From Streptomyces violaceusniger Tu 4113 (lineage in GTDB: Bacteria; Actinomycetota; Actinomycetes; Streptomycetales; Streptomycetaceae), in the NCBI RefSeq assembly GCF_000147815.2, contig NC_015957.1, positions 7,192,001 through 7,256,000 on the forward strand: 64,000 nt of DNA. Direction: 5' to 3'. A model generated the notes under the pieces. The model searched no databases. It had not been told where the DNA came from and was given only the letters and a program-made list of their open reading frames with translations. The stretch's first letter is position 1. The number at the start of each line of letters is the position of its first letter. This document shows, piece by piece, positions 4,137 to 24,346 of the stretch. Position numbers and translations under genes: made by a program.

Positions 4137-4298
4137 CGTTGACCGGTCTCCCCTCGCATGGGTCGGTGTCCGACCCTGACTGAAGGTGTCTTCCGCTGTT
4201 TGCGGAACACCCTTGCCGTTCCGTGGAGTTATCAATTCCGAATCCTTGAAATGCTACTTCAGTGGAGTCAAACTTCCCCCACTCTCACGGGAGTTCGC

Positions 4299-5135
4299 AT
4301 GCGCCCTATCCGCGCACGCAGACCACTGACGTCTCTTCTCACCGCGATGGCGGCGGTCTGCCTCGCCGTCACCGCGGCCCCCGCCGCGCAGGCTGTTCCG
4401 ACCGGGGCGGAGGCGGCCGGAAAGTACATCGCGCTCGGCGACTCGTACGCCGTCGCGCCCGGCACCCGAACCTATGACGACCCGAACGACGCCTGCCGGC
4501 GCGGACCGCTGTCCTACCCCCGGCTGTGGGCGGCGCAGCACACCTCGTACTCCTTCGTGGAGGCGTCCTGCTCCGGGGCGACCGCCGCGGAGGTCAAGAG
4601 CCGGCAGGTGCCTCAGCTCAGCGCGGACGCGACGCTGGTGACGGTGCAGGCCGGCGGGAACGACGTGGGCTTCGTCAACGTTCTGCAGAACTGCATCCTC
4701 ACCCTGGACGACAAGGACTGCGTCGCCGGGGTGGATGCCGCGAAGGCGGCGGCGACCGGTGTCCTGCCGGGCACGCTGGCCGACACCTACGCGGCCATCA
4801 AGGGGGCAGCCCCGGGCGCCAGGGTGGTCGTGGTGGGGTATCCCCGGCTGTACAAGATCGGCGGAAGCTGCGGCATCCTCGGGCTGAGCGACACGGAGCG
4901 CAGCGCGCTGAACTCGGCGGCCGACGTCCTCGACACCGTCCTCGCCCAGCAGGCCGCGAACGCGGGCTTCACCTTCCTCGACCCGCGGCCGGCCTTCGAC
5001 CCGCACACCATCTGCTCGGGGAACACCACCTGGGTGACGAGCCTTGAGTGGGACAAGCTGAACGAGTCGTACCACCCGAACCAGGCCGGGCACCGCGACG
5101 GCTACCTGCCCGCCCTGAACGACATCACGGGCTGA
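4299..5135 (+). CDS. Secreted SGNH/GDSL-family lipase or esterase
   Basis: The 278-residue protein has a signal peptide (MRPIRARRPLTSLLTAMAAV to AAQAVPTG). The SGNH blocks are present in order: YIALGDSYAV (nucleophile Ser in GDSY; block I), CSGATAAEV (block II region), VTVQAGGNDVGF (block III, Asn), and SYHPNQAGH at the C-terminus (block V, catalytic His). Cysteines such as SCSGAT and QNCIL...KDC suggest the disulphides of the Streptomyces SGNH lipases. The start at 4299 follows GGGAG; upstream frame extension is not protein-like. It is divergent from the EndoH gene, and both products are secreted hydrolases. Confidence 0.88.
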   Translation: MRPIRARRPLTSLLTAMAAVCLAVTAAPAAQAVPTGAEAAGKYIALGDSYAVAPGTRTYDDPNDACRRGPLSYPRLWAAQHTSYSFVEASCSGATAAEVKSRQVPQLSADATLVTVQAGGNDVGFVNVLQNCILTLDDKDCVAGVDAAKAAATGVLPGTLADTYAAIKGAAPGARVVVVGYPRLYKIGGSCGILGLSDTERSALNSAADVLDTVLAQQAANAGFTFLDPRPAFDPHTICSGNTTWVTSLEWDKLNESYHPNQAGHRDGYLPALNDITG

Positions 5136-5362: not shown

Positions 5363-7210
5363 TCACAGCGTCAGTTGCGCGTCCGGGCCCGGCGGCCGGT
5401 CGTCCACGGCGGGTACGAGCATCTGGGAGGCGGCGAGTTCGCGGTAGAGGGTGTCGGCGCCGACCAGGTCGTCGTGGGAGCCCGCGGCGCGAATCCCGCC
5501 GTCCTCCAGGACGATGATCTGCTCCGCGTCGGTGACCGTGGACAGGCGGTGGGCGATCAGGATGACGGTGCAGCGGCGCGCGGCCTGGTCCACCGCTTCC
5601 CGCAGGGCCTGTTCGTTGCTGGCGTCGAGCTGGGCGGTGGCCTCGTCGAGCAGCAGTACCTCGGGCCTGCGCAGCAGGGCACGCGCGATGGCGAGGCGCT
5701 GGCGCTCCCCGCCGGAGAGGGTGACGCCGCGGTTGCCGACCTCGGTGTCCAGGCCGTCGGGCAGCCTGGCGATCAGGGAGTCGAGCCGGGTCAGGCGCAG
5801 TACCTCGGCGATGTCCTCGTCGCCGGCGCCGGTCGCGGCGTAGCGGAGGTTGTCGCCGAGGGTGCCCGCCATCACCGGGGACTCCTGCTCGACGTAGGCG
5901 ATGCGTTGGCGGACCTCGGCGCGGGACATGAGGGCGATGTCCTGGCCGCCGATCCGGATGGCGCCCGCCCGCGGTTCGTAGAAGCGCTGGAGCAGCGCGA
6001 ACATCGTGGTCTTGCCGGCGCCGGAGAGGCCGACCAGTGCGGTACGGGTGGCGCCGGGCACGGTGAAGCTGATGCCGCGCAGGGCCGGCCCGCGCCCCGG
6101 GTAGGCGAAGTGGACGCCGTCGAACTCGACCGGTGGCGCCGGTGTCGACCGCGCGGTGTGCGGGGCCGCCCGCTCGGGCAGGTCCACGTCGTCCTCGGCC
6201 GGCAGGTGCTTGACCTGCTCGATGCGGACGATGGCGCCGAGGCCCTGCTGGAGCATGCCGAGGCCGCCGAGGAGCGAGGCGATCGGGCTGGCCAGGTAGA
6301 AGACGTAGAGCAGGAAGGCGATGAGCTGGGAGGCGTCGAGGTCCCCGGAGGCCACCAGGGCGCCGCCGACGCCGAGCACCGCCAGGAAGGCCGCCTGGAT
6401 GGCGACGCCGGAGAGGACCTGGACCAGGGCGACATACTTGGCGCCGGTCAGACCCGCCTGGTACGCCTCCTGGACGGCGGCCTCGGCGCGGGCGGTCTCC
6501 CGGGTTTCGGCGCCGTTGGCCTTGACGGTGCGGGCGGCGCCGAGTGAGCGGTCCAGGGCTGCACCGATGGCGCCGACGGAGCTCTGGGCGCGGGCGACGG
6601 CCTCGCGGATGCGGGGCAGGATCAGTCCGAGGAGTGCTCCGGTGCCGAGCAGGACCGCGAGGGTGACGCCGAGCAGGCCGAGGTGGACCGTGCCCATCAG
6701 GACGATGGCGCCGACGACGGTGAGCAGCCCATTGGTGATCATGACCAGGCCCTGGGTGGCGGCGTTCTGCACCAGGGCGCTGTCGGAGGTGACCCGGGCG
6801 ACCAGATCGCCGGGTGGACGGCGGTCCAGCTCGGGGATCTTCAGCCGGATGAGGCGGAAGACGAGGTCGCGGCGGATGGAGCGGACGACCTGCTCCGAGG
6901 TGCGCTGCTGCCACCAGGACTGGAGTCCGGTCAGGACGGCGCCCGCCACCACCAGGACGCTGAGCACAATGAGCGACCCGGTGACCACCGTGTCGTCGGC
7001 CAGGGCGTCCAGGACCGACCGCGCCACCAGCGGCTGGACGAGCCCGCAGCCGCTGGCGGCCAGGGCGAGCAGGAGCGAGCCGAGGAGGACGAACCGGTAC
7101 GGGCGGGCCTGCTGGAGCAGGGCCCGCAGCGGGCGGATACCGGGGGCCGGCGGCTCGTCGGACGCGGGGCTCGGCGCCTGCGGCGGAGGCATCGGATGGG
7201 CTGTGGTCAT
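5363..7210 (-). CDS. ABC exporter, fused membrane and ATPase domains (last gene of lipid operon)
   Basis: The 615-residue protein is a half-size exporter: a six-helix type-1 membrane domain (about residues 35-320; LDRRPPGDLVARVTSDSALV is the family's conserved coupling region) and an ATPase domain (about 360-600). The ATPase shows Walker A GLSGAGKTT, Q-loop YVEQES, signature LSGGERQRLAIARALL, Walker B VLLLDEATA and H-loop IAHRLS. All catalytic elements are present, and it should work as a homodimer. It lies 26 bp after the glycosyltransferase stop and is the last gene of the six-gene operon, so export of the glycosylated lipid product is the natural reading. Confidence 0.9.
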   Translation of the reverse strand: MTTAHPMPPPQAPSPASDEPPAPGIRPLRALLQQARPYRFVLLGSLLLALAASGCGLVQPLVARSVLDALADDTVVTGSLIVLSVLVVAGAVLTGLQSWWQQRTSEQVVRSIRRDLVFRLIRLKIPELDRRPPGDLVARVTSDSALVQNAATQGLVMITNGLLTVVGAIVLMGTVHLGLLGVTLAVLLGTGALLGLILPRIREAVARAQSSVGAIGAALDRSLGAARTVKANGAETRETARAEAAVQEAYQAGLTGAKYVALVQVLSGVAIQAAFLAVLGVGGALVASGDLDASQLIAFLLYVFYLASPIASLLGGLGMLQQGLGAIVRIEQVKHLPAEDDVDLPERAAPHTARSTPAPPVEFDGVHFAYPGRGPALRGISFTVPGATRTALVGLSGAGKTTMFALLQRFYEPRAGAIRIGGQDIALMSRAEVRQRIAYVEQESPVMAGTLGDNLRYAATGAGDEDIAEVLRLTRLDSLIARLPDGLDTEVGNRGVTLSGGERQRLAIARALLRRPEVLLLDEATAQLDASNEQALREAVDQAARRCTVILIAHRLSTVTDAEQIIVLEDGGIRAAGSHDDLVGADTLYRELAASQMLVPAVDDRPPGPDAQLTL

Positions 7211-7236
7211 GGGGTGCTCCGGGATGGGGGATGCGT

Positions 7237-8424
7237 TCAGCGGCCTGCGGATGCCACCGGGTGCGCCGTGACGAGCTGTTCGAGGTGGTCGGCCGCGGCG
7301 CGCCGGCCGCCCGCGACGCGCATCGACCTGCCGATGGCCGCCGCCGCGGTGCGGTGCCCGCCGGTGTCGTCCAGGACCGTGCGCAGCGCCTCGGCGAGCT
7401 TCGGCGCGTCCACCCGTCCGAAGCGCACCCTGATACCGGCGCCCGCCTCGGCCACCTGGCGCGCCACGATCGGCTGGTCGTCCCGGATCGGGGCGACCAC
7501 CAGCGGCAGCCCGTGCCAGAGGGCCTCGCAGACGGTGTTGTGGCCGCCGTGGCTGACGACCGCCCTGGCCCGGCCGAGCAGTTCGAGCTGGGGGACGTAG
7601 GGGCGCACCAGGATGCCGGGCGGCGGGTCGGTGAGTTGGCCGCCGGGGTCCGCGACGACGCCCTGCACCCGGTCGGCGAGCAGGTCCAGCGCTCCGGCGG
7701 CCTCGTGGAGGAAGCGCGCGCCGGCGTCGGTGTTGGCGGTACCGAGCGAGACGAAGACCAGGTCACGGGAGGGGTCGAGGGCCTGCCAGGGGAAGTCCGG
7801 GTCGCCGGGCCGGTCGGCGATGGCCGGGCCGACCAGGTGGACCCGCTCCCAGGGCAGGGTGCCGTCGCCGACGAGTTCCCGGCCGGTGAAGGCGAGGACG
7901 CCGTACGGGGAGAAGCGTGGGTCGTGGGTGGCGGCCGGGTCGCCGATCGCCTCCCGCAGTGCGTCCAGCCGACCGGTCAGCCAGGCGGCCACCTTGGGCA
8001 GATCGGCCAGCGGGTCGATGAGTTCGGCCGAGGTACTGGCCGAGGTGAAGTACGGGACGCCGAGGCGTTCGCACACCAGGGCGCCGGCCACCGCGTGCTG
8101 GTCGGTGACGACCGCGTCCGGGCGAAAGGCGTGCATCGCGCTCGCCACGGCGGGCGCCATCGCCTCGGCGAGCGGGATGAAGAAGACCTCCCAGAGGAAG
8201 CGGAAGGCGGCCGGTCCGGTCAGGGTCGGCGGGCGGACCAGTTCGCCGGCTTCGGGGAGAGCGCATTCGTGGACGGCGGCGGCGGGTCCGGCCGCGTCGC
8301 GGATGCGGTCGGCGTAGCCGCACCACGCGACCTCGTGGCCGCGGGCGGTCAGTTCGGCCGCCACCGCGACGAGCGGGTTGATGTGCCCGGTCAGTGGCGG
8401 TGCGACCAGGAGGAAGCGGCTCAT
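7237..8424 (-). CDS. MGT-family (macrolide-type, GT1) glycosyltransferase
   Basis: The 395-residue GT-B enzyme begins FLLVAPPLTGHINPLVAVAA, the acceptor-side GHxNP motif. The donor-binding C-terminal signature is SHGGHNTVCEALWHGLPLVV followed by DDQPIVARQV, with the usual His, Gly-rich, Glu and DQ residues. Such enzymes move a sugar from an NDP-sugar to hydroxyls of macrolides, polyenes or terpenoid lipids. The start ATG overlaps the hydrolase stop (ATGA), so translation is coupled. In this operon the acceptor is probably the product of the PUFA-like synthase. No sugar-nucleotide genes are nearby, which suggests a housekeeping sugar such as UDP-glucose. Confidence 0.88.
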   Translation of the reverse strand: MSRFLLVAPPLTGHINPLVAVAAELTARGHEVAWCGYADRIRDAAGPAAAVHECALPEAGELVRPPTLTGPAAFRFLWEVFFIPLAEAMAPAVASAMHAFRPDAVVTDQHAVAGALVCERLGVPYFTSASTSAELIDPLADLPKVAAWLTGRLDALREAIGDPAATHDPRFSPYGVLAFTGRELVGDGTLPWERVHLVGPAIADRPGDPDFPWQALDPSRDLVFVSLGTANTDAGARFLHEAAGALDLLADRVQGVVADPGGQLTDPPPGILVRPYVPQLELLGRARAVVSHGGHNTVCEALWHGLPLVVAPIRDDQPIVARQVAEAGAGIRVRFGRVDAPKLAEALRTVLDDTGGHRTAAAAIGRSMRVAGGRRAAADHLEQLVTAHPVASAGR

Positions 8425-9242
8425 CCGACGGCTCCGGCCCAGGCGCCCGACCGGCGCGCGTGGTGCTCGCGCACCCAGTCCAGGACCAGGTCACGGGTGC
8501 GGCCGGGCTGTTCGACCAGGACCGAGTGGCCCTGGTCCGGGAGGACCACGGTGCGGCACTGTGCGACCTTGGCCTCCAGCTCCGGCACCTGGGCGCTGAG
8601 CCCGGAGTCGGCGCCGAAGACGGCGAGCAGCGGGCAGCGCAGCGCGGACAGGTCGTCGTCGATGAGCCGCCCGGCCGGGACGTCCTCGGCCAGCGTGGTG
8701 GTCTGCAGAATGCGCGCGGCCGTGCGGGAGAGCCGGGCGGTGTGCGCCCCGTAGCGCTCCTTGATCCACTCAATGGCCTGGTCGTGGACCAGGTCACGGC
8801 GGGCGTGCGCCAGGCCGTCCGCGATGTGGGTGGCCCAGGTGGCCACCGGCGGCTCGGACTCGATCATGGTGAGGGTGGCGGTGCGGTCCGGATGCCAGGC
8901 GGCGAACCCCGCGGCGACGGTGCCGCCGAAGGAGTTGCCGACCAGGTGCACCGGGCGGTGCTCGCCCAGGGCGTCCAGGAGCAGTGCCAGGTCCTCGACG
9001 AAGTGCTCCAGGCGGTAGCCGGTGGGCGGCCGGTCGGTGCGGCCGTGCCCGCGCAGGTCGTACATCACGGTGTCCATGCCCGCCGCGGACAGCGCCGGGC
9101 CGAGGGTGAAGTAGTAGCTGGCGAGCGAGTCCGTGAGCAGACCGTGCACGAGGACGACCACCGGGGGCTCGCCCTCGCCGGCCGCGCCCGCTCGCAGCTC
9201 CTGCACATGGGTGGTGATGTCGCCGGTGGGTGTCTTCGCCAT
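8421..9242 (-). CDS. Alpha/beta-hydrolase, possible thioesterase of the lipid operon
   Basis: The 273-residue protein has the oxyanion segment VVVLVHGLL, the nucleophile elbow VGNSFGGTVAAGF (Ser near residue 102), a candidate acid in AVFGADSGL and the catalytic His in DQGHSVLVEQPG. The triad is complete. The fold family includes esterases, C-C hydrolases and stand-alone thioesterases. Its position between the carrier protein (4-bp gap) and the glycosyltransferase (4-bp overlap) suggests that it releases or trims the acyl chain made by the two synthases, which have no thioesterase domain of their own. The exact reaction is inferred only from context. Confidence 0.85.
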   Translation of the reverse strand: MAKTPTGDITTHVQELRAGAAGEGEPPVVVLVHGLLTDSLASYYFTLGPALSAAGMDTVMYDLRGHGRTDRPPTGYRLEHFVEDLALLLDALGEHRPVHLVGNSFGGTVAAGFAAWHPDRTATLTMIESEPPVATWATHIADGLAHARRDLVHDQAIEWIKERYGAHTARLSRTAARILQTTTLAEDVPAGRLIDDDLSALRCPLLAVFGADSGLSAQVPELEAKVAQCRTVVLPDQGHSVLVEQPGRTRDLVLDWVREHHARRSGAWAGAVG

Positions 9243-9246
9243 CCGG

Positions 9247-9570
9247 TCAGCTCTCCTCGGTGGCGCGGAGCGAGGCGGTGACGTAGTCGGCGAGCTGACC
9301 CACGGTCAGCGCGATGATCTCGTCGAGTTCCAGGTCCGCGATGAACAGGGCGAGGTTGACGCGCTCGCCGTACTGCTCGCGCAGGAGGCCGGCGAGGGTG
9401 ACCAGGTCGATGCTCTCCAGCTCCAGGTCGTCGTGGAAAAGCGTCTCGCGGCTGATCTCGGCGTCCTCCAGACCGGCGTCGGGCAGCTCGCGCAGCGTCG
9501 CGGCGATCTGTGCGAGGACGGTGTCCTCGTCGATGCTGAGGGCCGTGGGGGTGGCCGCCTCACTGGTCAT
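9247..9570 (-). CDS. Free-standing acyl carrier protein
   Basis: The 107-residue acidic protein contains the carrier motif DDLELESIDLVTLAGLL, where Ser of ESIDL is the 4'-phosphopantetheine site. Helix 2 and the following LDEIIALTVGQLADYV fit the carrier fold. The ATG at 9570 lies inside the end of the upstream synthase (11-base overlap), so the two are translated together; the frame is open for 18 more codons upstream, but those lie in synthase sequence. The PPTase domain at the end of that synthase can activate it. It may load a starter unit or carry the finished chain to the hydrolase. Confidence 0.85.
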   Translation of the reverse strand: MTSEAATPTALSIDEDTVLAQIAATLRELPDAGLEDAEISRETLFHDDLELESIDLVTLAGLLREQYGERVNLALFIADLELDEIIALTVGQLADYVTASLRATEES

Positions 9571-12500
9571 GCTGGCTCTCCTGACTGACTGGCTCGGCGC
9601 CGCCCGTGGTCCAGGCGACGACATAGTTCCGTTCGGGCAGCCCCGCGGGGGCCGCCACCTGATCGCAGCGCACTTCCCAGGCGCGGCCCGCGTGTTCCAC
9701 CCGCAGCAGGTCGGGACGGGCGGCGGTGACCCGGTACTCCTGAGGTCGTCCGCGCAGCCCCGTACCGCGCTCCTTCGCGACGGCTTCCTTCGCCGCCCAG
9801 AAACGGGTGAACCACAGGTCTTCGCTCTCGTCGCCCGCGGCGACGGTACGGGCGAGGAGTGCGCGCTCCTCGGGGCCGCAGGCCGCCGCGACGGTGGCGG
9901 CGGGCCGGGCGGTGACCTCTTCGAGGTCGATGCCGCAGGGTCCGCGGCGGGCCAGGGCGACCGCCGCCTCGGCGCTGTGCGCGAGGGAGACCGTCAGGCG
10001 CGGACCGATGGCACGGCCGTGCACACCGGTCACCACGGGCCGGCCGGCCGCGTCGTTGTGCAGGGCGATCTCGGCCGGGTAGATGTCGCCCGCGCCCTCC
10101 GCCCAGAGCAGCCTGCGGACCGCGTCCTTGGCGGCGATCCGGCCGAGCAGGTGGCGGCGCTTACGGGTCGGGGGCTGGCCGGCGTAGCGGTCGCGTTCGG
10201 CGCCGCCGAGCACATTGCGCATGATCAGGTCGCGGGTGGCGAGATCGGGCCAGCGCTCGTGGGCCAGGCTCCATCCCCCGGTGCGCTCCTCGGAGAGCGT
10301 GTTCCGGCCGGGAAAGCGGTCCATCAGCCGCAGGCCGGGGTCGGTGTCGAAGCGCCGGTCGGTCCAGCCCGTGCATTCGGCCCAGACGCGGCCCGCGTGG
10401 ACGAGCTGCATATCGGCGGTGAGGGTGGTGGGGGTGACCTCTCGGATACGGATATGGCAGTCCAGGGCGGTGCCGGCGGCCGGTTCGGGGCCGTGGAAGT
10501 CGATCCGGGCCATGCCGACCGGGAAGACCGTGGTGCGTTCGGTGAGGGTGGCCATGATCCAGTAGCCGAGGAGCTGGCCGACGTTGTCGAGGAGCGCGCC
10601 GGGTGGTCCGGGCGCGGTGAGGACGCCGCGCACATGCCGTTCACCGATCGCGGTGAGTTCGGTGACGCCCTGGAAGGCGGGGCCGTGGAACATCCACCGC
10701 TCGGTGTAGAGCTGTTCGGCGGCCAGTTCGGGGACCCGTTCGCAGGCCGGGTCCGCCGGCCACACGGCGGGCGGGGTCCCGGGGCCCGAGGCGAACTGGA
10801 CCTCGGCGCCCGCGAAGCCGGTGAGCCCGACCTCGACCCGGTCCGGGGCCGAGCGGCGCACCGCGACGGGCACGTCACGGGCGGGCATGGCCTCGATCCA
10901 CTTCTGGAGCCGCACGTTGTGCACGGCCACCACCCGCTGTTCCCGCCGTCCCCGCTCTCTGGGCATCGCCTCTTCCGCGATACGGACGAGGTGGTCGATG
11001 ACGGTGGTCGCGGGCACGATCGGCCACCGGTCGGCCTCGTCGGGCCAGCCGGGCCGTTGACGGAAGAAGCAGTGGTCGCGGAGGTACGGCATCCGGTCCA
11101 CGTCGATCCGCAGGGTGGCGGGGACGGTCGCGAGGCCGTCGGCGCCGCTGGAGCGGTTCGGGGTGCCGGAACCGCTCGGGGTGCCCAAGCCATTCGGACG
11201 GCCGGACCCGTCCGGGCCGACCGCGTGGCCCAGGGCCCGCGGTGCGGCCGGTGGCGGTGCGACGGCAGCGGATCGCGGGGTCGGCGGCCGGTGACGCGCC
11301 GGGACACGGGGGCCGCGGCGCTGCCCCAGCGCGTCGAGGAGTTCCGCGGCGACGGCGGTGGTGTCGGTGAGCAGCGCGGAGAACTCGGCGGCCACCGGGT
11401 GGTGTCCGCCGGCGCGGCCGGGCCGGTCGAGCGCGTCGGCGTGGGTCTCGGTCCGGGCGGCCGGGACAGCCGGGCGCAGGGGCCGCGCGGTGGGGTCCGG
11501 TGTCGCGACGAGGAGACCGTGCCCGGCCGCGGGAAGGGAGACCAGGGCGCCGCCGAGGTCGAGCTTCATCCCGGCGCGGCGTACCGGGCGGACGCTCGAA
11601 CTCGCCCGGCCGGCAGGCGGGTTGAGCGGGGTGACGTCCGGGTCGGCGCCCTCCGTCCACAGCGCGGTCGTCACCCGGCGGAGCTGGGCGAGGCTGTCGC
11701 GGGAGGTGGAGTGCGCGGGCACCACCAGGCGATCACGGCCCGCGAGGGTGTCGTCGATGAGGGAGCCGAGCTGGCCCGCGCCCAGGGTCAGGAAGGCCCG
11801 GAACCCCGCCTCGTACATCCGCAGGACGAGTTCGCGGAAGCGGACCGGTTCGAGCAGATGGCGTACGAACAGCTCGCGGACCGCCTCCGGTTGGGCCGGG
11901 AAGGGGGCGGCAACGGTCGCGGACCACAGGGCGGTGTGCGGCGGGTGCAGGGTGTACCGCTCGGCCGCCGTGCGGATCGGGTCCAGGTAGGGGGCGAGCA
12001 TCGGGGTGTGGAAGCCGGAGCGGAAGGGCAGCACCTGCGCGATGACGCCCTGCGTGCGGAAGTCGGCCACCAGGTCGGCGACGGCCTCCTCTGGTCCGCA
12101 GATCATCGACTGGTTGGGGGCGTTGTCGTGGCTGAGGACCACGTCCTCGCGGCCGTCGAGCCGGTCGAGTACCCGGTCGGCGGCGGTGCCGAGGACGGCG
12201 AAGGCCAGGCCGGGCACCCGCAGCGCGTCCGGGTCGAAGCCGGCCAGGAAGGCGTCCACCTCCTCGGAGGTGTGCACCCCGGCCGCCGCCATCGCGGTCC
12301 ACTCCCCCACGCTGTGCCCGGCCACGGCGTCGGGCGCCACGTCCAGGCGGCGCAGCGCGGTGTCGAGCAGCCGGCCCAGTTGGAAGACGGCGGCGCCGTG
12401 CCGGCCCACGTCGCCGACCTCGGCCTCCTCGTCGTAGGACCAGTCCAGGCCGAGCCGGGCGGCGAGTTCGTCGACCTTGGGGGTGAACTCGGCTTCCAGG

Positions 12501-14278
12501 CCCGGGAAGACGAAGGCGGTGCGCCCACCGGCCGGGCCGAGCACCGGGCGCGGGGTGAACCACACATCGCCACGCCCGCGCCAGGGCTCGCCCTTGCCGA
12601 CCGCCCGGCGTGCCATTTTCAGGCGGCGTGCCGTGGGGTCGACGATGCCGAGCCGCACCGGGCCCGCGGCGGGCGAGCCCGTCTCGGGCAGGCTCGCGGC
12701 GAGCACCGCGCCGTCCTCGGCGTCGAGCCGGGCGGCCAGTTCCTCGGGGGTCCGGGCGGCCAGCCGCAGCACGCGCTCCGGCTCACCGACGGTCACCCGG
12801 GGGCGGCGGCCACGGACCGCGGCGGGCTGTTCGAGTATCACGTGCGCGTTGATGCCTCCGAAGCCGAAGGCGTTGACCGCGGCCCGACGCGGGGCGCCGC
12901 CCGCGACCTCGTCCCAGGGGCGGGCGGTGGCGAGCGTGGTGAACCGGGTGGCTTCGAGGGCGGGGTTGGGGTCGTCGCAGTGCAGGGTGGGCGGCAGCGT
13001 CTCGTGGTGCAGGGCGAGCGCCGCCTTGATCAGACCGGCCACGCCGGCGGCCGGCATGGTGTGCCCGATCTGCGACTTCACCGAGCCGATGACGGCGCGC
13101 CCGGCGGTCGCGGGGCCGAACACCTCGGCCACCGTCCGAAGTTCGGCCCCGTCCCCGGCGGCCGTCGCGGTGCCGTGCGCCTCGAGGAGCTGGAGCGCGT
13201 CGGCGGCGCGCGGGTCGAGCCCGGCGGCCTCCCACGCCTGGCGGACGGCACGGGCCTGACCGCCCGGGTCGGGGTTGAACAGGCTCCCCGAGCGGCCGTC
13301 GCTGGCCACTCCGGTGCCGCGGATCACCGCGTAGATCCGGTCCCCGTCGCGCCGCGCGTCCGCCAGCCGCTTGAGGACGACCACGCCGGTGCCCTCGCCG
13401 ATCAGGACGCCGTCGGCGTCCCGGTGCAGCGGGCGGATGCGCTCGCTCGGGGACAGCGCGCCGAGCTGGCTGAAGACGCTCCACAGGGTGAGGTCGTGGC
13501 AGTGGTGCACCCCGCCCGCGAGCATCACGTCGCACCGCCGGGAGGTGAGTTCGCGTACCGCGTGGTCCACGGCGACCAGCGAGGAGGCGCAGGCGGCGTC
13601 CACGGTGTAGGCGGGTCCGCGCAGATCGAGCCGGTTGGCGACGCGGGAGGCGACCAGATTGGGCACCAGGCCGATCGCGGACTCCGGCTCCTCGGGTCCG
13701 AGCCGTTCGCAGAACCCGGCGCGCACCGATTCCAGTTGGGCTTCGTCGAGTTGCGGGGCCAGCTCGCGCAGGGTGTGCACGAGCTGGTTGGCGGTGCGGA
13801 CCCGCTGGTCCAGGCGGACCAGGCCCGGCGTGAGGTAACCGCCGCGGCCGAGTACGATCCCGGCGCGTTCGCGGCGTGCGGGCAGGACGGACTCGCCGCC
13901 CGCGTCCTGAAGGGAGCGGTACGCCACGTCGAGCGCGATGAGCTGGTCCGGGTCGGTGGCGGGCACCGACTTCGGCATGATCCCGAAGCGCGTCGGGTCG
14001 AACTCGGCGCCGCTGTCGACGAATCCGCCGCGACGGCAGTAGAAGCGGTCACTGCGCCGCCCGGCGGCCGGGTCCCTCGCCGCGGTCGGGTCGTAGAAGA
14101 GCGGGTCCCAGCGGTCGGCGGGCACCTCGGTGATCGCGTCCACACCGGCGGCGATGTTGTGCCAGTAGGCGGCCAGATCGGGGGCACCGGGGAGGAAGAC
14201 CTCCATGCCGACGACGGCGACCGGCTCACCCTGCGCCTCGGGCCCGCCGAGGGGTACGGGGGTGGGCATCGCGTTCAC
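9560..14278 (-). CDS. PUFA-type iterative synthase subunit: KS-AT-DH-PPTase
   Basis: The 1572-residue protein contains four domains. KS is at about 18-470 (VDAACASSLVAVD near 229, LLEAHGTATAAGD, GSVKSQIGHTMPAAG: Cys-His-His intact). AT is at about 590-890 (FVFPGLEAEF, AGHSVGEWTAMAA near 655). A hot-dog DH lies at about 1060-1310 (LRDHCFFRQRPG, FHGPAFQGVTEL). A fused phosphopantetheinyl transferase occupies about 1340-1570 (GIDLEEV, FWAAKEAVAKERGTGL). It combines PfaC-like and PfaE-like functions of PUFA synthases, but there is only one DH and no chain-length-factor domain. A linker at about 900-1050 is rich in Pro, Arg and Ala. The GTG start overlaps the stop of the upstream synthase; an ATG follows 9 bases later. 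Confidence 0.9.
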   Translation of the reverse strand: MNAMPTPVPLGGPEAQGEPVAVVGMEVFLPGAPDLAAYWHNIAAGVDAITEVPADRWDPLFYDPTAARDPAAGRRSDRFYCRRGGFVDSGAEFDPTRFGIMPKSVPATDPDQLIALDVAYRSLQDAGGESVLPARRERAGIVLGRGGYLTPGLVRLDQRVRTANQLVHTLRELAPQLDEAQLESVRAGFCERLGPEEPESAIGLVPNLVASRVANRLDLRGPAYTVDAACASSLVAVDHAVRELTSRRCDVMLAGGVHHCHDLTLWSVFSQLGALSPSERIRPLHRDADGVLIGEGTGVVVLKRLADARRDGDRIYAVIRGTGVASDGRSGSLFNPDPGGQARAVRQAWEAAGLDPRAADALQLLEAHGTATAAGDGAELRTVAEVFGPATAGRAVIGSVKSQIGHTMPAAGVAGLIKAALALHHETLPPTLHCDDPNPALEATRFTTLATARPWDEVAGGAPRRAAVNAFGFGGINAHVILEQPAAVRGRRPRVTVGEPERVLRLAARTPEELAARLDAEDGAVLAASLPETGSPAAGPVRLGIVDPTARRLKMARRAVGKGEPWRGRGDVWFTPRPVLGPAGGRTAFVFPGLEAEFTPKVDELAARLGLDWSYDEEAEVGDVGRHGAAVFQLGRLLDTALRRLDVAPDAVAGHSVGEWTAMAAAGVHTSEEVDAFLAGFDPDALRVPGLAFAVLGTAADRVLDRLDGREDVVLSHDNAPNQSMICGPEEAVADLVADFRTQGVIAQVLPFRSGFHTPMLAPYLDPIRTAAERYTLHPPHTALWSATVAAPFPAQPEAVRELFVRHLLEPVRFRELVLRMYEAGFRAFLTLGAGQLGSLIDDTLAGRDRLVVPAHSTSRDSLAQLRRVTTALWTEGADPDVTPLNPPAGRASSSVRPVRRAGMKLDLGGALVSLPAAGHGLLVATPDPTARPLRPAVPAARTETHADALDRPGRAGGHHPVAAEFSALLTDTTAVAAELLDALGQRRGPRVPARHRPPTPRSAAVAPPPAAPRALGHAVGPDGSGRPNGLGTPSGSGTPNRSSGADGLATVPATLRIDVDRMPYLRDHCFFRQRPGWPDEADRWPIVPATTVIDHLVRIAEEAMPRERGRREQRVVAVHNVRLQKWIEAMPARDVPVAVRRSAPDRVEVGLTGFAGAEVQFASGPGTPPAVWPADPACERVPELAAEQLYTERWMFHGPAFQGVTELTAIGERHVRGVLTAPGPPGALLDNVGQLLGYWIMATLTERTTVFPVGMARIDFHGPEPAAGTALDCHIRIREVTPTTLTADMQLVHAGRVWAECTGWTDRRFDTDPGLRLMDRFPGRNTLSEERTGGWSLAHERWPDLATRDLIMRNVLGGAERDRYAGQPPTRKRRHLLGRIAAKDAVRRLLWAEGAGDIYPAEIALHNDAAGRPVVTGVHGRAIGPRLTVSLAHSAEAAVALARRGPCGIDLEEVTARPAATVAAACGPEERALLARTVAAGDESEDLWFTRFWAAKEAVAKERGTGLRGRPQEYRVTAARPDLLRVEHAGRAWEVRCDQVAAPAGLPERNYVVAWTTGGAEPVSQESQHDQ

Positions 14279-17200
14279 CAGCCGGAGGCGGTGTAGACGA
14301 CGGTGTGCTCGTCCGGGGCGCCGTAGGCGAGTTCGCGCAACAGGCTGAGCGGGCCTTCCTCCAGGTCGATCAGTTTGATGCCGCGGGCCGCGTAGGAGCG
14401 CATCAGCTCCGGGCCGACCATGCCGCCGCCGGTCTCGGACGCGGCCCAGGGGCCCCAGTGCACGGTCAGACCGCGCCGCTCGGCACCGGACCAGCGGCGG
14501 CCCAGTTCCTCCAGGGCGTCGTTGGCGCCGGCGTAGTCGCTCTGGCCGCGGTTGCCGAGGGCGGCGGCGATGGAGCCGAAGAGGACGGCGAAGCGTGGGC
14601 TCACCGGCAGCCGGTCCACCGCGTCCAGGACGGTGGCGGCGCCGTCGGCCTTGGTGGTGAAGACCCGGGCGAAGGACTCCGGGGTCTTCTCCGAGATCAG
14701 CTTGTCCTCGATGAGCCCGGCGGCGTAGACCAGCCCGTCGAGCCGTCCGTACTGGGCGTACACCTCCTTGACCGCGGCTCCGGCGGCCTCCGTGTCCGTC
14801 ACGTCCACCCGCTGGTACTCGACCTCACCGCCCAGCTCTCGCAGGGCGGCCAGGGTGGTGCGTACCTCGCGCTCGGCGAGGATCGCCGAGACCCGGCGTT
14901 CGGTGTCGGCGGGGGTGGTGGTGAGTTTCGCGGCGAGCAGGGCGCCGCGCAGCGAGGCACGGTCGGTGGCGCCGGCCGTATCCGGGTCCTCGGCGGCCGC
15001 GGGTTCCGGGGTGCGGCCGAAGAGGACCAGGCGGCAGCGGGCCGCGGCGGCGAGGGTGCGGGCGAAGCGGGCGGTGATGCCCCGGGCGCCGCCGACCAGG
15101 AGGACCACCGACTCACGGTCGAGCCCGACGGCCTCGGCCTCGGCGGCGCCGTCGCCCGCCGGTCCGGCGCCGCTGGTGGCGATCGAGCCGAGCGGGGTGA
15201 GCGCCAGGCGCAGGGCGCGGCGACCGCCGCCCTGGTCCAGCAGCACCACCGGCTCGTGCTCGGGGGCGGCGAGTTCGGCGAAGAGGGCGCGGGCGGCCTC
15301 GGCGGCGCTCGCCCCGTCGGGGACCTCGGCCAGCGTGGCGCGGGTCTCGGGGTACTCGCGGGCCACCGTGCGGAAGAAGCCGCGCAGCCCGCTGGGCGCC
15401 CCGGCGCCCCGCCGGTCGGCGGCGAGCAGGCGACGCGGCCCGGCGGCGAGGACCCGCTGGTAGAGGGCGAAGGCTTCGGGCAGCACGGGCCCTTCGGCGT
15501 CCAGCGGCGTCAGGTGCACCACCGTCTCCTCGCCCGCGGCGGGCAGTTCGCCGTCGGGGACCAGCTCGGTCTCGACGCCGGCCTCGGCCAGCAGCGCGGA
15601 CAGTTCGGCGGCGGTCTCGCCGCCGCCGAGGAGCTGTACCCGGCGGCCGGGCTCCGGGCGGGCGGTGACCGGTTCGAGGACGTGTTCGGTGAACAGCAGC
15701 CGCTGCGGGGCGGTGATCTCCGGGCGCGGTCCGTCGACGGCGAGAGTGGAGGTGGAGGTCTCGGCGGGCGCCGGAACGGAGCCGAGGGCTGCCTCCAGGA
15801 GTGCGCTGAGCGCGGCGACGGTACGGGCGCCGCTGAGCGCTTCGAGGTCCGCCCCGGCGGTGTCCAGGGCGAGGCGGCCACCGAGTTCGCCGACGATCTC
15901 GGTGCGCTTGATGGAGTCGATGCTGAGATCGGCCTCCAGATCGAGATCCGGCTCCAGCATGTCCACCGGGTAGCCGGTGAGCCCCGCGACCACCTCGAGA
16001 ACGGTGTCCAGGACCGGCACATCACGGGCCGGGGCGCCGGCCGCGGCGGAGGCGGGCGCGGCGGACGGGACGGCGGCGGGGGTGCCGAGCCGGGCGGCGA
16101 GGAGCGAGGCCATGCCCTCGGCGGTGCGGACGCCGCTCAGCTCCTCAAGCTGCTCGCCTCCCTGGGCGGCGACGCCCAGCCGGGCGGCCAGTTCACCGGC
16201 GATCTCGGCCCGCTTGATGGAGTCGATGCTGAGATCGGCCTCCAGATCGAGATCCGGCTCCAGCATGTCCACCGGGTAGCCGGTGAGCCCCGCGACCACG
16301 TCGAGAACGGTGTCCAGGACCGAGGCACCCGGCGCGGCGGCGGGCGCCGCGACGGGCCCCGGAGCGACGGCCGACGACGTGGCGACGGCCGACGATGCCG
16401 TGACGGCCGGGACGATGTGTGCCGCGGGTACAGCCTGCGCGGTCGACCGCGTCGTCCCGGGCGGGAGTTCGGGTGCTCCCAGGTAGGAGAGCAGGACGTC
16501 GCGCTGGGCGGAGACCATCTCCCGGCTGCTGCGGAGGAACTCCGCGATCAGCGCTTCGGGACCGGCGGCCGGCGCGGGGAGGTGACGCGGGTCGGACACG
16601 GTGAACTCCGTCACGGGTCGGGCGGGGAGCAGGGCGTGCGGCGGGAAGGCGCCGTCGGCGCGGCGCAGCAGGTGGCCGTCGACGGTGAAACCGGCCCGCC
16701 GGACGGCTTTGGCGGTAGCGGGGTCGACGGTGTCGCGGCCGGTGAACAGCGGCCGGGTGCGCAGCTCCGTGCCGCTGACGGCGAGTCGGGCGAGCGCGGT
16801 CAGGAAGGCGGGCAGTCCGCCGTCGCGGCCGCCCTCCAGCGGCACGGTGCGGTGCGGGCGGTCCCCGAGCACGTCCGCCACCAGGCGGCTGAGCACCCGG
16901 CCGGGCCCGGCCTCGACGAAGACCCTGGCCCCTGCCTCGTACATCGCCTCGATCTGTTCGGCGAAGCGGACCGGGGAGCCGAGCTGGGCGGTCAGTTCGG
17001 CGCGGATGCCCTCGGCGTCGTCGGGGTAGCGCGCCGCGGTGCGGTTGGCCCAGACCGGGAAGGCCGGGGCCGGCAGGTCCAGCCCCGCGAGGTGGGTGCC
17101 GAAGTCCTCACCCGCGCCGTCGAGCAGCGGGCTGTGGAAGGCGCAGGCCACACTCAGCGGCTTGGCGCTGTATCCGGCGTCCTTCAGTTGGGCGATGGCG

Positions 17201-20200
17201 GCGGCGACCGCCTCGCTCGGGCCCGAGATGACCGTCTGGGTGGGCGAGTTGTGGTTGGCGGCCACCACGTCGCCGGCCAGGTCCGCGAGGCGCAGCACCT
17301 CCTCGACCTGGTCGGCGGAGGCACCGACCGCGGCCATGGTCCCCGCGTCGCCCTCCGGGACCCGGCCGAGGATGGCCTCGGCGCGGGCGACGCTGGCGGC
17401 GAGCAGTTCGTCGGGGGTGAACACTCCGGCGGCGGCGAGCGCGGCGAGTTCGCCGTAGCTGTGGCCGCCGGCCATCGCGGGGCGCACCCCGAGAGAGCTG
17501 AGCAGTTCGGTGGCGGCGAGCGCGGTGATGCCGAGGGCGGGCTGGGCCACCGCCGTGTCGGTGATCCGGGCCTGGGTGCGGGCCGCGGCCTCGGCGTCGA
17601 GCGCGGCCGGCGGGAAGAGCGCGTCGGCCCAGCGGGCGCCGAGGTGCAGGTGGCGGTGGAGTCCGGGGAAGGCCGCGAAGAGCGGCGCGAGCATCCCGGG
17701 TCGCTGGCTGCCCTGGCCCGGGAAGAGCAGCGCGAGCCGGCCCTCCGCGACCTCCCGCGGCACGGCGCGGGCGAGGTGGATGCCGTCGGCGGGGGCGTGT
17801 TCGCCCTCGGCGGCCCGGCGCAGCAACTCTGGCAGTTCGGCCGACGAGCGGGCGACCACCGCGATCTGTACGGGTTCGCCGCGCACGGCGGCCTGGTCGC
17901 TGCGGTGGGCGGCGTGGCGCGCGAGGTCGCGCAGGCGGCTGTGGCCGCCGTCCTGGTCGATCAGGGCGAGCAGGGCGCGGACCGCCTTGACGGCGGCCTG
18001 CTCCTCGCGGCCGCGGAAGGTGAACAGCTCGGCCGGCCAGGCGTCCAGGGCGTGTGCGGCGGGCGCCTGGTCGTGGGCGCGCAGGACGACGTGGAAGTTG
18101 GTGCCGCCGAAGCCGAAGGCGCTGACGCCCGCGATCCGGTCGGCCGGTTCGACGGCCCAGGGGGCGGTGGAGGTGTGGAAGGCGAAGGGGCTGGTGTCCG
18201 CCTCCCAAGCCGGATTGGGGTTGCCGAGGTGCAGGGTGGGCGGCTTGACGCCGTGGTAGAGCGCGAGGGTGGTCTTGATCAGTCCGGCCAGTCCGGCGGC
18301 GCACTTGGTGTGCCCGATCTGCGACTTGACCGAGCCGATGGCGCAGGAGCCGGGTTCGGCCCCGTACTCCCGGAACACCTCGGTCAGGGTGGCGAGTTCG
18401 GTGCGGTCGCCGACGACGGTGCCGGTGCCGTGCGCCTCGATCAGGCCGACCTCGGCCGGGGAGATCCGGGCGTTGGCGTAGGCGCGGGTCAGGGCGGCGC
18501 GCTGGCCTTCGGGGCGGGGCGCGGTCAGGCCGAGGCCACGGCCGTCGCTGGCGCTGCCGACACCGTCGATCACCGCGTAGATCCGGTCGCCGTCGCGTTC
18601 GGCGTCGGCGAGGCGCTTGAGGGCCACACAGGCGACGCCCTCGCCGAGGGCGATGCCGTCCGCGCTCGCGTCGAAGGTGGCCGAGCGGCCGGAGGGCGAC
18701 AGCGCGTGCACGGAGGAGAAGAGCAGGTAGTCGTTGATGCCGTTGTGCAGGTCGGCGCCGCCGCACAGAACCAGGTCGCTGGTGCCGGTGACGAGTTCCT
18801 TGCAGGCGGCGTCGACGGCGGTGAGCGAGGAGGCGCAGGCCGCGTCGACGGTGTAGTTGGCACCGCCGAGGTCGAGCCGGTTGGCGATGCGCCCCGCGAT
18901 GACGTTGGCGAGCATGCCGGGGAACGAATCCTCGGTCAGCTTCGGCAGTTGCTCCTCCAGACCGGGCGGCAGCGTGCCGACGTAGGCGGGCAGCACGGTG
19001 CGCAGGGTGGAGGCGTTGGCCAGGTCGCTGCCCGCCTCGGCGCCGAAGATCACCGAGGTGCGGCGGTGGTCGGCCTCCGGCCCCTCGTAGCCGGCGTCGG
19101 CGAGTGCGCGCCGGGCGGCCTCCAGGGCGAGCAGTTGCACGGGTTCGATGCTGGGCAGCGAGGCGGGCGGGATGCCGTAGCTCAGCGGGTCGAAGGGGAT
19201 CCGGGGCAGGAAGCCGCCCCAGCGGGAGGGGGTGCGTTCGCCGTCACCGTCCGGCGCGTAGTACAGCTCGGGGTCCCAGCGTTCGGCGGGCACCTCGGTG
19301 ATGCTGTCGGTGCCGGACACCACATTGGCCCAGAACTCGCCCAGGTCGCGGGCGCCGGGAAACATCGCGGCCATGCCGACCACGGCGACACGCAGCGGCG
19401 CGGGTGCCTCCTCGGCGGCCGGGGCGGGGACGGTGGCGGCGCGCTCGGCGAGCCAGGCGGTGGCGCCCTCGGTCACCTCCCGGTGCAGATCCGCGATGGT
19501 GGTGACCTCGGCGCGCAGCACGCTGACCTCACCGGCCATGAACATGCCCTCGGCGCCCTGGCGCTCCTCGTCCACCGCGCGCAGTTCGTCCCCGATCCGC
19601 TCGACGCCCTTGGAGGCGATGCGCAGCCGGCCGACGTTGAACCGCTCCAGGCGCTCCCAGACCTCGCGGTCCGGCACGCCCTGGGCGGTGAGTTCGTCCC
19701 GCAGCGCGGCGAAGTCGCGGGTGACCTCGCTGGCCGCGCACCGGGTGGCGTGGCCCGGCGCGGTCTCCAGCAGGTCGGTGCGGTCGGCGGCGAGGACCCG
19801 CCGCTGGAAGAGCGGCCGGATGGCGCCCGCGCCGACCGCCTCGGCGGTGACCAGGTAGGCGGTGCCCATCAGCACACCGAAGGCGGCGCCCGCCTCGGTC
19901 AGCGGGGCGGCGACGGTCGCGGCCATGGCCGCCGACCGGGCGTCGTGGATGCCGCCGGCGAAGAGCACGGTCAGCTCCGTGGCCGCCGCGGGGCCCTGCT
20001 CGGCGAGGAACGCGCGCAGCACCTCGGTCTGCGCCTCCCACAGCGGGAAGCTGTTACGGGGCCCGATGTGACCGCCGCACTCGGCGCCCTCGAAGATGAA
20101 CTTGCGGGCACCCGCCGCGAGGAACTGCCGCAGCAGCCCCGGCGAGGGCACATGCAGGAAGGCCGATATGCCCTCCGCCTCCAGTGCGGCGGCCTGTGCG

Positions 20201-21402
20201 GGACGGCCGCCCGCGATGACGGCGTGCGTGGGTTTCAGCTCCCGGACGACGGCGAGCTGGGCCTCCTTGACCTGCTCGTCGGCGAAGCCCAGGATGCCCA
20301 CGCCCCAGGAGGCGCCCTCGGGCAGCGAGTCCCGGGTGTGCTCCAGCATGGCCCGGGTGCGCGCGGCGTCGGCGAGGGCGAGGGCGAGGAAGGGCAGGGC
20401 GCCGTCGGCTGCCACGGCGGCGGCGAACGCGGGCTCGTCGCTGACCCGGGTCATCGGGCCCTGGGCGACGGGCAGGCGGGTGCCGAGCGCGCGGGCCCCG
20501 GCGGAACCCTCGGCCAGCGCGGCGGCGGCCCGCTCGCCGACGGTGGCCCGGCCGATCGCGTCGCGGACCCTTCGGACCGCCTCGGCGACGGTGGCGGAGC
20601 GGGCGGCGAAGGAGGCGGCGAGGTAGCCGTCCTGACCGACCGGCAGGAGGCGCCGCAGGGAATCGGTGGCGGCGAAGGCGCGCTCGGCGGTGGCGCTGTC
20701 GGTGGGCTGCTCGGGGGCCCGCGGCCCGCGGCGGCGCAGGAAACGCACCCCGTCGACGAGGACGCTCTCGGAACCGTCCAGCGAGCCGAGTGCCTCGACG
20801 GCCTCGGCATCCGGTTCGGCCTCGTCGAGCAGCGCGAGTTGGACGTCGAGCACCACGCCCGCCGCTCCACCGGCGACCGCCGCGGCGGCTGTGCGCGGGC
20901 CGATGCCGCCCCACGCCCAGACCGGCACGGCGATCCCCGGATCGGCGAGAACCCCTTGCAGCAGGACGAACGTGCTCAGCTCACCGGCCCGGCCGCCGCA
21001 CTCGCTGCCGCGCAGCAACAGCCCGGCAGCGCCGGCGTGCACGGCGTCGGCGGCCCCGGCGAGGCTGGTGACCTCGACGAGCACGCGGCGCCCGGGGAAG
21101 TCGGCGGCGGTCCGTGCGGGGTCGGCGAGCAGCACGGTCGTGGCGCCCTCGGGGAGGTCCGCTACGCCGAGCGGGCAGCCAGGACGGACCCGGACCCCGA
21201 AGGGACGGCCGCCGGACCAGCGGGCGGTGCGACGCAGAGCCTCGATGGCATCGCGGCGACGCTCGGACAGTTCGAGCACACCGAGGGCGCCTGCCCGGCC
21301 GGCCGCGGCGGTGAGGCGGGGCGATGGGCGGTGCAGCGGGTTGACCGCGAGGACGGCGTCTACCGATGCATCCGACGGCGCAGGGGTGGCGAGCGTCCGC
21401 AT
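14275..21402 (-). CDS. PUFA-type iterative synthase subunit: PfaD-like, KS-AT-ACP-ACP-KR
   Basis: The 2375-residue protein starts with a flavin-dependent nitropropane-dioxygenase/PfaD-like region in two parts: residues 1-240 (LLLRGSECGGRAGELS) and about 310-600 (IFEGAECGGHIGPRNS near 440), likely the enoyl reductase. KS follows at about 668-1125 (VDAACASSLTAVD near 855, IEAHGTGTVVGD, GSVKSQIGHTKCAAG). AT is at about 1225-1520 (FPGQGSQRPGML, GGHSYGELAALAA near 1312). Two ACPs carry LSIDSIKR near 1727 and 1829. A KR (about 2095-2340) has VGGARGITARFA and GNRGQSDYAGAND. Order KS-AT-ACPn-KR equals PfaA, here with PfaD fused in front. It is the first gene of the operon. Confidence 0.9.
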   Translation of the reverse strand: MRTLATPAPSDASVDAVLAVNPLHRPSPRLTAAAGRAGALGVLELSERRRDAIEALRRTARWSGGRPFGVRVRPGCPLGVADLPEGATTVLLADPARTAADFPGRRVLVEVTSLAGAADAVHAGAAGLLLRGSECGGRAGELSTFVLLQGVLADPGIAVPVWAWGGIGPRTAAAAVAGGAAGVVLDVQLALLDEAEPDAEAVEALGSLDGSESVLVDGVRFLRRRGPRAPEQPTDSATAERAFAATDSLRRLLPVGQDGYLAASFAARSATVAEAVRRVRDAIGRATVGERAAAALAEGSAGARALGTRLPVAQGPMTRVSDEPAFAAAVAADGALPFLALALADAARTRAMLEHTRDSLPEGASWGVGILGFADEQVKEAQLAVVRELKPTHAVIAGGRPAQAAALEAEGISAFLHVPSPGLLRQFLAAGARKFIFEGAECGGHIGPRNSFPLWEAQTEVLRAFLAEQGPAAATELTVLFAGGIHDARSAAMAATVAAPLTEAGAAFGVLMGTAYLVTAEAVGAGAIRPLFQRRVLAADRTDLLETAPGHATRCAASEVTRDFAALRDELTAQGVPDREVWERLERFNVGRLRIASKGVERIGDELRAVDEERQGAEGMFMAGEVSVLRAEVTTIADLHREVTEGATAWLAERAATVPAPAAEEAPAPLRVAVVGMAAMFPGARDLGEFWANVVSGTDSITEVPAERWDPELYYAPDGDGERTPSRWGGFLPRIPFDPLSYGIPPASLPSIEPVQLLALEAARRALADAGYEGPEADHRRTSVIFGAEAGSDLANASTLRTVLPAYVGTLPPGLEEQLPKLTEDSFPGMLANVIAGRIANRLDLGGANYTVDAACASSLTAVDAACKELVTGTSDLVLCGGADLHNGINDYLLFSSVHALSPSGRSATFDASADGIALGEGVACVALKRLADAERDGDRIYAVIDGVGSASDGRGLGLTAPRPEGQRAALTRAYANARISPAEVGLIEAHGTGTVVGDRTELATLTEVFREYGAEPGSCAIGSVKSQIGHTKCAAGLAGLIKTTLALYHGVKPPTLHLGNPNPAWEADTSPFAFHTSTAPWAVEPADRIAGVSAFGFGGTNFHVVLRAHDQAPAAHALDAWPAELFTFRGREEQAAVKAVRALLALIDQDGGHSRLRDLARHAAHRSDQAAVRGEPVQIAVVARSSAELPELLRRAAEGEHAPADGIHLARAVPREVAEGRLALLFPGQGSQRPGMLAPLFAAFPGLHRHLHLGARWADALFPPAALDAEAAARTQARITDTAVAQPALGITALAATELLSSLGVRPAMAGGHSYGELAALAAAGVFTPDELLAASVARAEAILGRVPEGDAGTMAAVGASADQVEEVLRLADLAGDVVAANHNSPTQTVISGPSEAVAAAIAQLKDAGYSAKPLSVACAFHSPLLDGAGEDFGTHLAGLDLPAPAFPVWANRTAARYPDDAEGIRAELTAQLGSPVRFAEQIEAMYEAGARVFVEAGPGRVLSRLVADVLGDRPHRTVPLEGGRDGGLPAFLTALARLAVSGTELRTRPLFTGRDTVDPATAKAVRRAGFTVDGHLLRRADGAFPPHALLPARPVTEFTVSDPRHLPAPAAGPEALIAEFLRSSREMVSAQRDVLLSYLGAPELPPGTTRSTAQAVPAAHIVPAVTASSAVATSSAVAPGPVAAPAAAPGASVLDTVLDVVAGLTGYPVDMLEPDLDLEADLSIDSIKRAEIAGELAARLGVAAQGGEQLEELSGVRTAEGMASLLAARLGTPAAVPSAAPASAAAGAPARDVPVLDTVLEVVAGLTGYPVDMLEPDLDLEADLSIDSIKRTEIVGELGGRLALDTAGADLEALSGARTVAALSALLEAALGSVPAPAETSTSTLAVDGPRPEITAPQRLLFTEHVLEPVTARPEPGRRVQLLGGGETAAELSALLAEAGVETELVPDGELPAAGEETVVHLTPLDAEGPVLPEAFALYQRVLAAGPRRLLAADRRGAGAPSGLRGFFRTVAREYPETRATLAEVPDGASAAEAARALFAELAAPEHEPVVLLDQGGGRRALRLALTPLGSIATSGAGPAGDGAAEAEAVGLDRESVVLLVGGARGITARFARTLAAAARCRLVLFGRTPEPAAAEDPDTAGATDRASLRGALLAAKLTTTPADTERRVSAILAEREVRTTLAALRELGGEVEYQRVDVTDTEAAGAAVKEVYAQYGRLDGLVYAAGLIEDKLISEKTPESFARVFTTKADGAATVLDAVDRLPVSPRFAVLFGSIAAALGNRGQSDYAGANDALEELGRRWSGAERRGLTVHWGPWAASETGGGMVGPELMRSYAARGIKLIDLEEGPLSLLRELAYGAPDEHTVVYTASGW
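15905..16322 (-). repeat. Near-identical 112-bp blocks encoding the two tandem ACP domains
   Basis: Bases 15905-16016 and 16211-16322 match over 112 positions with one difference (CACCTCG versus CACGTCG), spaced 306 bp apart. Each encodes the stretch from the family's VLDTV through TGYPVDMLEPDLDL to LSIDSIKR. Sequences between the blocks, including the Ala/Pro linker and the rest of each ACP, have diverged. The pattern points to recent duplication or gene conversion limited to the ACP core. Confidence 0.85.
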
Positions 21403-23167: not shown

Positions 23168-23199
23168 GAGGGCAAGAGTAATCCGGAACGAGCCCCGGA

Positions 23200-23222
23200 C
23201 CCTGGTGCCCGCAGCACCAGGG
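23200..23222. promoter_or_regulatory. Palindromic operator between MmyB regulator 1 and SDR 1
   Basis: CCCTGGTGC and GCACCAGGG form perfect 9-base arms around CCGCA. The centre (23211) is 44 bases from the regulator start and 59 bases from the SDR start. The second MmyB/SDR pair has a palindrome at exactly the same distances (34924-34944), which supports an operator role. Confidence 0.7.
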
Positions 23223-23269
23223 CCACGGCTCACTTCCTCAGCCGCGACGCGGGACCTAGCGTCCGGTCC

Positions 23270-24342: not shown

Positions 24343-24346
24343 CTAG

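Follow-up and report, generated by a model that had tools for sequence, protein, structure and literature searches.

A PUFA-synthase-related operon of Streptomyces violaceusniger lies in a conserved cassette that probably makes a glycosylated lipid

We analyzed a 64,000-nucleotide stretch of Streptomyces violaceusniger Tu 4113 (contig NC_015957.1, positions 7,192,001 to 7,256,000; hereafter the window) and found that positions 5363 to 21402 carry, on the minus strand, a six-gene operon related to polyunsaturated fatty acid (PUFA) synthases. Our preferred reading, to which we assign a probability of roughly 0.68, is that it encodes a secondary lipid synthase that acts iteratively and has the actinobacterial PfaDA/PfaBC-phosphopantetheinyl transferase (PPTase) layout, resembling the Type M synthases, and that this synthase works within a conserved cassette making a glycosylated lipid. 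All six genes have a start and a stop codon, no internal stops and no TTA codons, and show a strong third-codon GC bias (0.91 to 0.95). Neighboring genes overlap by 4 to 11 bases or are separated by 4 to 26 bases when the free acyl carrier protein (ACP) gene is taken to start at 9570; a start at 9624 would give a 65-base overlap with the preceding gene. A promoter-like site, identified by consensus match only, lies directly ahead of the first gene (21457 to 21428), and the same gene order was seen again across the 33 loci examined. Operons of this kind are common among soil actinomycetes. A preliminary description of this DNA had proposed a self-contained, PUFA-synthase-related operon of six tightly packed minus-strand genes, including genes for release, glycosylation and export, and our analysis bears this out.

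The first gene (14275 to 21402) encodes a PfaDA-like synthase subunit of 2375 amino acids (aa), in the order tandem NMO/FabK barrels-ketosynthase (KS)-acyltransferase (AT)-ACP-ACP-ketoreductase (KR). The second (9560 to 14278) encodes a PfaBC-PfaE-like subunit of 1572 aa, in the order KS-AT-dehydratase (DH)-PPTase. Both were assigned by Pfam, NCBIfam and active residues. Pfam detected NMO, KS, AT, two PP-binding domains and KR in the former, and KS, AT and ACPS in the latter, with PS-DH appearing once the DH stretch was scanned by itself. The four smaller genes matched PP-binding, abhydrolase, GT1/EryCIII-like and ABC exporter families. This agrees with the earlier statement that PfaD is fused ahead of PfaA and PfaE behind a trimmed PfaC, with one DH and no chain-length factor (CLF). 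The domains listed at that time were recovered as well, except that the PfaD part consists of two barrels and that 9570 is the likelier start of the ACP.

Residue conservation was counted over 121 proteins per large subunit, namely the window protein aligned with its 120 top-ranking database relatives, a sample that favors close homologues. Three database searches gave 1310, 4925 and 743 relatives, each among about 7985 scored candidates. KS 1 (18226 to 19392; Pfam and active residues) carries Cys856, His991, Lys1026 and His1031, a set conserved in 121/121. KS 2 (12977 to 14227) has the same active Cys-His-Lys-His set, conserved in 119/121 with the other two proteins gapped. The 9560-14278 protein contains no KS-CLF pair: its single KS is followed by an AT and not by a second KS-like domain. 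The KR (14443 to 15108; Pfam and active residues) keeps its residues wherever the region is present, save for a single protein in which Pro replaces the Asn, and the DH (10340 to 11143) keeps both His1069 and Asp1231 in 121/121. The PPTase domain (9599 to 10276) shows the P1a and P1b' motifs. The two ACPs (15799 to 16314; Ser1728 and Ser1830), of which the first has an estimated outer limit, vary in number: among 103 members longer than 2200 aa, a simple motif count gave two in 27 and one in 76.

The two ATs appear to differ in role. The malonyl-specific PfaA-MAT has a Gln/Arg pair, whereas bacterial PfaB, described as a long-chain terminal acyltransferase, is without it in the accessible text of PMC12895367; from the residue numbers given there we derived offsets of -28 and +25 from the catalytic Ser. 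At these offsets, AT 1 (16771 to 17727; Gln1287, Ser1315, Arg1340, His1423) has Gln and Arg in 121/121 and is thus of the malonyl type by this rule. AT 2 (11783 to 12511, domain start estimated) has Gly and Phe in 121/121 (Gly628 and Phe681 in the window). Because it lacks the malonyl pair, AT 2 is PfaB-like by the same rule and may have a long-chain substrate. We also observed relatives of about 950 to 1010 aa (for example, P0250), several of them named as Pseudonocardiaceae metagenome genomes, that precomputed Pfam matches describe as AT-DH-PPTase without KS.

The N terminus of the PfaDA-like subunit consists of two FMN-type TIM barrels of the enoyl reductase (ER) kind. Barrel 2 (residues 298 to 641; 19480 to 20511) is PfaD/FabK-like and keeps the catalytic His445 in 121/121. 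Barrel 1 (residues 11 to 291; 20530 to 21372) forms a full TIM barrel in the model but has Arg138 at the position of the catalytic His, which is absent in 121/121. The claim that all catalytic residues are intact is therefore not fully right: it holds for KS, DH, KR and the barrel 2 His, and fails for barrel 1. Barrel 1 is thus predicted to be an inactive partner, probably paired within one chain with the active barrel 2 as an internal dimer. When the whole double-barrel model was submitted to Foldseek, the alignments were blurred (TM to target about 0.6 at best), and a second comparison resolved both barrels. The thraustochytrid ER heterodimer was not among the Foldseek matches listed, which says nothing against a likeness. 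We found no account of a dead first ER barrel in the literature, with no search aimed at that feature alone.

The genes downstream of the synthase form a near-constant set. The free ACP (9247 to 9570; PP-binding match and homologue lengths) more likely starts at 9570, since the resulting 107 aa are close to the 105 to 111 aa called for several homologues. It is followed by an alpha/beta hydrolase (8421 to 9242) with GNSFGG and QGHSV motifs, likely a release or transfer enzyme, and by an MGT-like family 1 glycosyltransferase (GT; 7237 to 8424). The hydrolase nucleophile is Ser, except that L023, L024 and the other cassette copy of the window's genome carry Cys; such a change often goes with acyl transfer instead of hydrolysis. 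An MsbA-like ABC exporter (5363 to 7210) closes the operon. Beyond the previously described span lies a convergent GDSL lipase gene on the plus strand (4158 to 5135, start more likely 4299), whose product is probably secreted, as judged by eye from a signal-peptide-like N terminus.

To follow this set we used 33 loci: the window itself, the other cassette copy of its genome (L006/L026, taken as one locus), all 19 loci from one search, the two plasmid records holding most of the query and ten chosen genomes (5 of the 8 non-window genomes of a phylum sample and 6 of 57 genus genomes, one shared). They are mostly from Streptomyces and are not independent. Presence was scored as a tblastn match downstream of the PPTase that covered 30% or more of the query at an E value of at most 1e-8. 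By this measure the hydrolase was found in 33/33 loci, the ACP in 32/33 and the GT in 31/33. The slot after the GT was variable. It held the ABC exporter and the convergent GDSL lipase in 8 loci, the two genes adjoining in 8/8, a Methyltransf_23 protein in 12, and a lipoprotein-like gene without a Pfam match in 6 (one scanned, lipobox by eye). None of these was found in the remaining 7, three of which (L009, L015 and L039) end within 3 kb. The exporter is therefore a clade-specific addition outside the core. The six lipoprotein-like proteins (L017 to L022; for example, L021:14039-15565) measure about 500 to 600 aa. In L044 (G012), the DH-PPTase, ACP, hydrolase, GT and methyltransferase genes are present; the upstream KS-AT part is not in the stretch covered and the PfaDA N terminus lies about 50 kb off, as if the set had been split by insertion or rearrangement.

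From the genes, domains, active-site residues and conserved set described above we infer the following catalytic steps and their order, as well as what we say of chain length, saturation, sugar and function. The built-in PPTase would prime the ACPs, AT 1 would load malonyl units onto them, and both KS domains would carry out elongation. A trans-enoyl intermediate would arise through KR and the single PKS-type DH, and ER barrel 2, probably paired internally with the inactive barrel 1 as a dimer, would reduce it in some or all cycles. The PfaB-like AT 2 would move the finished chain, perhaps onto the free ACP, and the alpha/beta hydrolase would release or transfer it. The GT would then add a sugar. 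A common UDP-sugar is the probable donor, as no gene for deoxysugar formation was recognized among the neighbors scanned. In the clade of the window, the ABC exporter and the probably secreted GDSL enzyme would act last. Our best reading of the product is thus a chain, reduced or trans-enoyl, that undergoes release, glycosylation and export. More tentatively, it is possible that these loci represent an undescribed class of secondary lipids spread across the actinobacteria, glycosylated and in many lineages methylated as well. Its marks would be a five-gene cassette, a one-chain ER pseudo-dimer in which a dead barrel supports a live one, and a last slot that alternates among an exporter with a lipase, a methyltransferase and a lipoprotein so as to tailor the lipid or place it.

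Several points weigh against our preferred reading. The GT scored only 171.1 bits against the MGT model TIGR01426, under the NCBI cut-off of 260; this was still its top NCBIfam match, and we therefore call it an MGT-like GT1 enzyme rather than an MGT glycosyltransferase, as first described. The set is not universal, since L025 and L042 have no nearby GT match and L025 also has no ACP match. Of the six-gene cluster initially proposed, the ACP, hydrolase and GT partners stand, but the exporter is present in only 8/33 loci. As for the reductase, the barrel model was built on 15 sequences with a mean pLDDT of 74.8, and the GGH and GGR loops both fell below 50. In addition, a small monomeric fraction was found for a related ER (PMC13311796, accessible text), so the ER dimer may not be strictly required.

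The GT and the exporter could instead serve self-protection. The product would then be a polyene or polyketide antibiotic and the two genes would protect the producer, as OleI does in macrolide immunity, rather than take part in product assembly. We consider this unlikely. The top NCBIfam matches of the GT are indeed macrolide GTs, with OleI second (85.7 bits), the exporter and the GDSL enzyme do vary between clades, and an exporter with a secreted hydrolase next to it would suit the extracellular removal of a protecting group. However, the GT is retained where a methyltransferase or lipoprotein-like gene replaces the exporter, and GDSL enzymes are esterases or lipases, none of them, to our knowledge, a glycosidase.

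We find it very improbable that the operon encodes a true PUFA synthase making methylene-interrupted cis fatty acids of the eicosapentaenoic/docosahexaenoic acid (EPA/DHA) kind for membranes, a label that clusters of this sort are sometimes given. PfaA (TIGR02813) is the top NCBIfam match of both large proteins, and the synthase does have a PfaD-like ER, tandem ACPs and a PPTase, yet the scores of 915.1 and 475.8 bits both fall under the curated cut-off of 1010.1. Cis double bonds are said to be placed by FabA-like DHs (PMC9667614, accessible text). The DH of the window is of the PKS-type double-hotdog kind, as judged from residues, fold comparison and profile scan. Scanned by itself, its stretch matched PS-DH and, weakly, PKS_DH_N, and no FabA family was listed at an E value of at most 10, where the HMMER filters drop most matches above about 0.1. 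Nor was a FabA-type DH found in the whole synthase proteins at an E value of at most 0.01. Against the PDB, phmmer gave only a weak match for this stretch (E value of 0.037), and the fold was assigned by structure comparison instead. The single PKS-type DH, the lack of any FabA-type DH match and the missing CLF together argue against an EPA/DHA-like product, which makes the polyunsaturated chain proposed earlier doubtful; moreover, a membrane fatty acid would not need the GT so widely conserved in these loci. Least probable of all, and to be given very little credence, is an enediyne-like route, in which a split relative of PKSE (KS-AT-ACP-KR-DH-PPTase) would make a conjugated polyene precursor that is left unreduced: PKSE does place its DH before a C-terminal PPTase, and the KR and DH residues are conserved here, but so is His445 of ER barrel 2, two KS and two AT domains are present, and no enediyne partner gene was recognized among the neighbors scanned, which were only part of all neighbors.

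The DH-PPTase part was matched at an E value of at most 1e-30 in at least 57 of 199 genomes of the genus and at least 9 of 396 genomes sampled across the phylum, the window's own included; these may be lower bounds, as only the best candidates of a first pass were scored. Two matches each were found in G149, G164 and the window's genome (11.1 Mb, 3 contigs). In the latter, the second cassette copy (G000:C3, about 5,840,300 to 5,856,100; L026 and L006) has a methyltransferase in place of the exporter and an adjoining erythromycin-esterase-like gene upstream. Large linear plasmids of Streptomyces sp. NBC_01243 and NBC_00984 (L027 and L028) carry the methyltransferase cassette, and IS transposase genes follow it within a few kb. 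The closest named relatives of the window synthase are from Streptomyces violaceusniger (98% over the PfaDA N terminus) and S. niphimycinicus (91%, best segment).

Elsewhere in the window, an MmyB-like regulator and a divergent SDR, followed by a DDE transposase (24405 to 25319), occupy 22355 to 25319 and possibly mark the operon boundary. On the plus strand, 40143 to 43850 encodes WD40 propellers fused to a Ser/Thr kinase. A 1331-aa AMP-binding/PP-binding/hexapeptide protein (27769 to 31764, minus strand) resembles poly-lysine-type (NAPAA) synthetases. Its membership in the pathway, an idea taken from the Ottowia cluster discussed below, was rejected: in three genomes that have a strong match and the cassette on one contig, the distance between them is about 8.1 Mb (G164), 3.3 Mb (G109) or 6.2 Mb (G067). 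In the fragmented assembly of G149 they fall on separate contigs, and the matches in G021, G144 and G044 were weaker and confined to the adenylation part.

The synthase type has been recorded since 2011 with its product uncharacterized, and its near-constant ACP, hydrolase and GT partners turn it into a testable class, that of a sugar-bearing lipid. The constant partners and the variable exporter or methyltransferase single out genes for expression. The DH-PPTase part occurs in about 3 in 10 genomes sampled from the genus, and the cassette is carried by two linear Streptomyces plasmids. Three features merit further work: the conserved glycosylation cassette, the exchange of genes at the last slot and the reductase pseudo-dimer.

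Among known systems, quoted here from the accessible parts of the cited papers, PfaA-E PUFA synthases share the KS-AT-ACPn-KR order, the TIM-barrel ER, the PfaB-like second AT and the PPTase. In contrast, the window synthase is fused, has no CLF, one PKS-type instead of two FabA-type DHs and a doubled ER, and its operon has an additional GT, hydrolase and free ACP. The S. coelicolor locus, cited in the preliminary description, is likewise an actinobacterial PUFA-like synthase of unproven product, but it has a separate pfaD and a fused KS-CLF-DH2-AT and is listed as Type L (PMC3098273), which rules it out as the closest relative. We take SCO0124-0129 (synthase SCO0126-0127) to be this Type L locus; the "eicosapentaenoic acid" label of SCO0126-0127 rests on similarity (PMC5932044). 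For Kutzneria kal28, the accessible text names only a PUFA-synthase similarity (PMC4210621). The thraustochytrid ERb/ERc heterodimer (PMC13311796) also provides two TIM-barrel ERs per synthase, but on two proteins and with His in both, whereas the window has them on one chain with the first lacking His. The Ottowia hybrid PKS-NRPS-lipid cluster (PMC13291983) shares a fused pfaDA, a pfaBC without KS-CLF and a GT, and differs by PKS-NRPS and NAPAA genes, none of which lies within the window operon. In the literature covered, with most subscription papers and all bioRxiv preprints outside it, we found neither a product for this layout nor an account of a GT/hydrolase/ACP partnership with it. This agrees with the earlier remark that the route could not be matched to a known product, but the layout itself has precedents: two Flavobacteriales have a fused PfaDA and PfaBC-PPTase closely resembling Renibacterium (PMC13291983), the layout seen in the window when compared by description. 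Type M secondary lipid synthases (Shulse and Allen 2011, PMC3098273) were described from Actinosynnema, Frankia, Renibacterium and S. avermitilis, with the product uncharacterized. The accessible text of that paper mentions no linked GT/hydrolase/ACP set and no doubled ER, "glycosyl" occurring 0 times in the main text, and no named Type M member was among the 120 matches listed in our distant-relative search. The window synthase shares the actinobacterial hosts and has a 68% relative in an Actinosynnema. The Type M PPTase has P1a x(G/D)xP and P1b' hShxH rather than P1b (F/S)NxSH, with P0 unlisted for Type M in that text. With loose patterns over the last 330 residues, we found P1a in 121/121, P1b' in 120/121, P1b in 0/121 and P0 in 2/121 of the close set, and P1b' in 120/120, P1b in 0/120 and a P0-like motif in 54/120 of a more distant set. 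Layout and PPTase motifs, compared with the Type M descriptions only, thus make membership in Type M likely. The synthase is therefore less singular than first thought, belonging to a known, uncharacterized kind that is common in Streptomyces.
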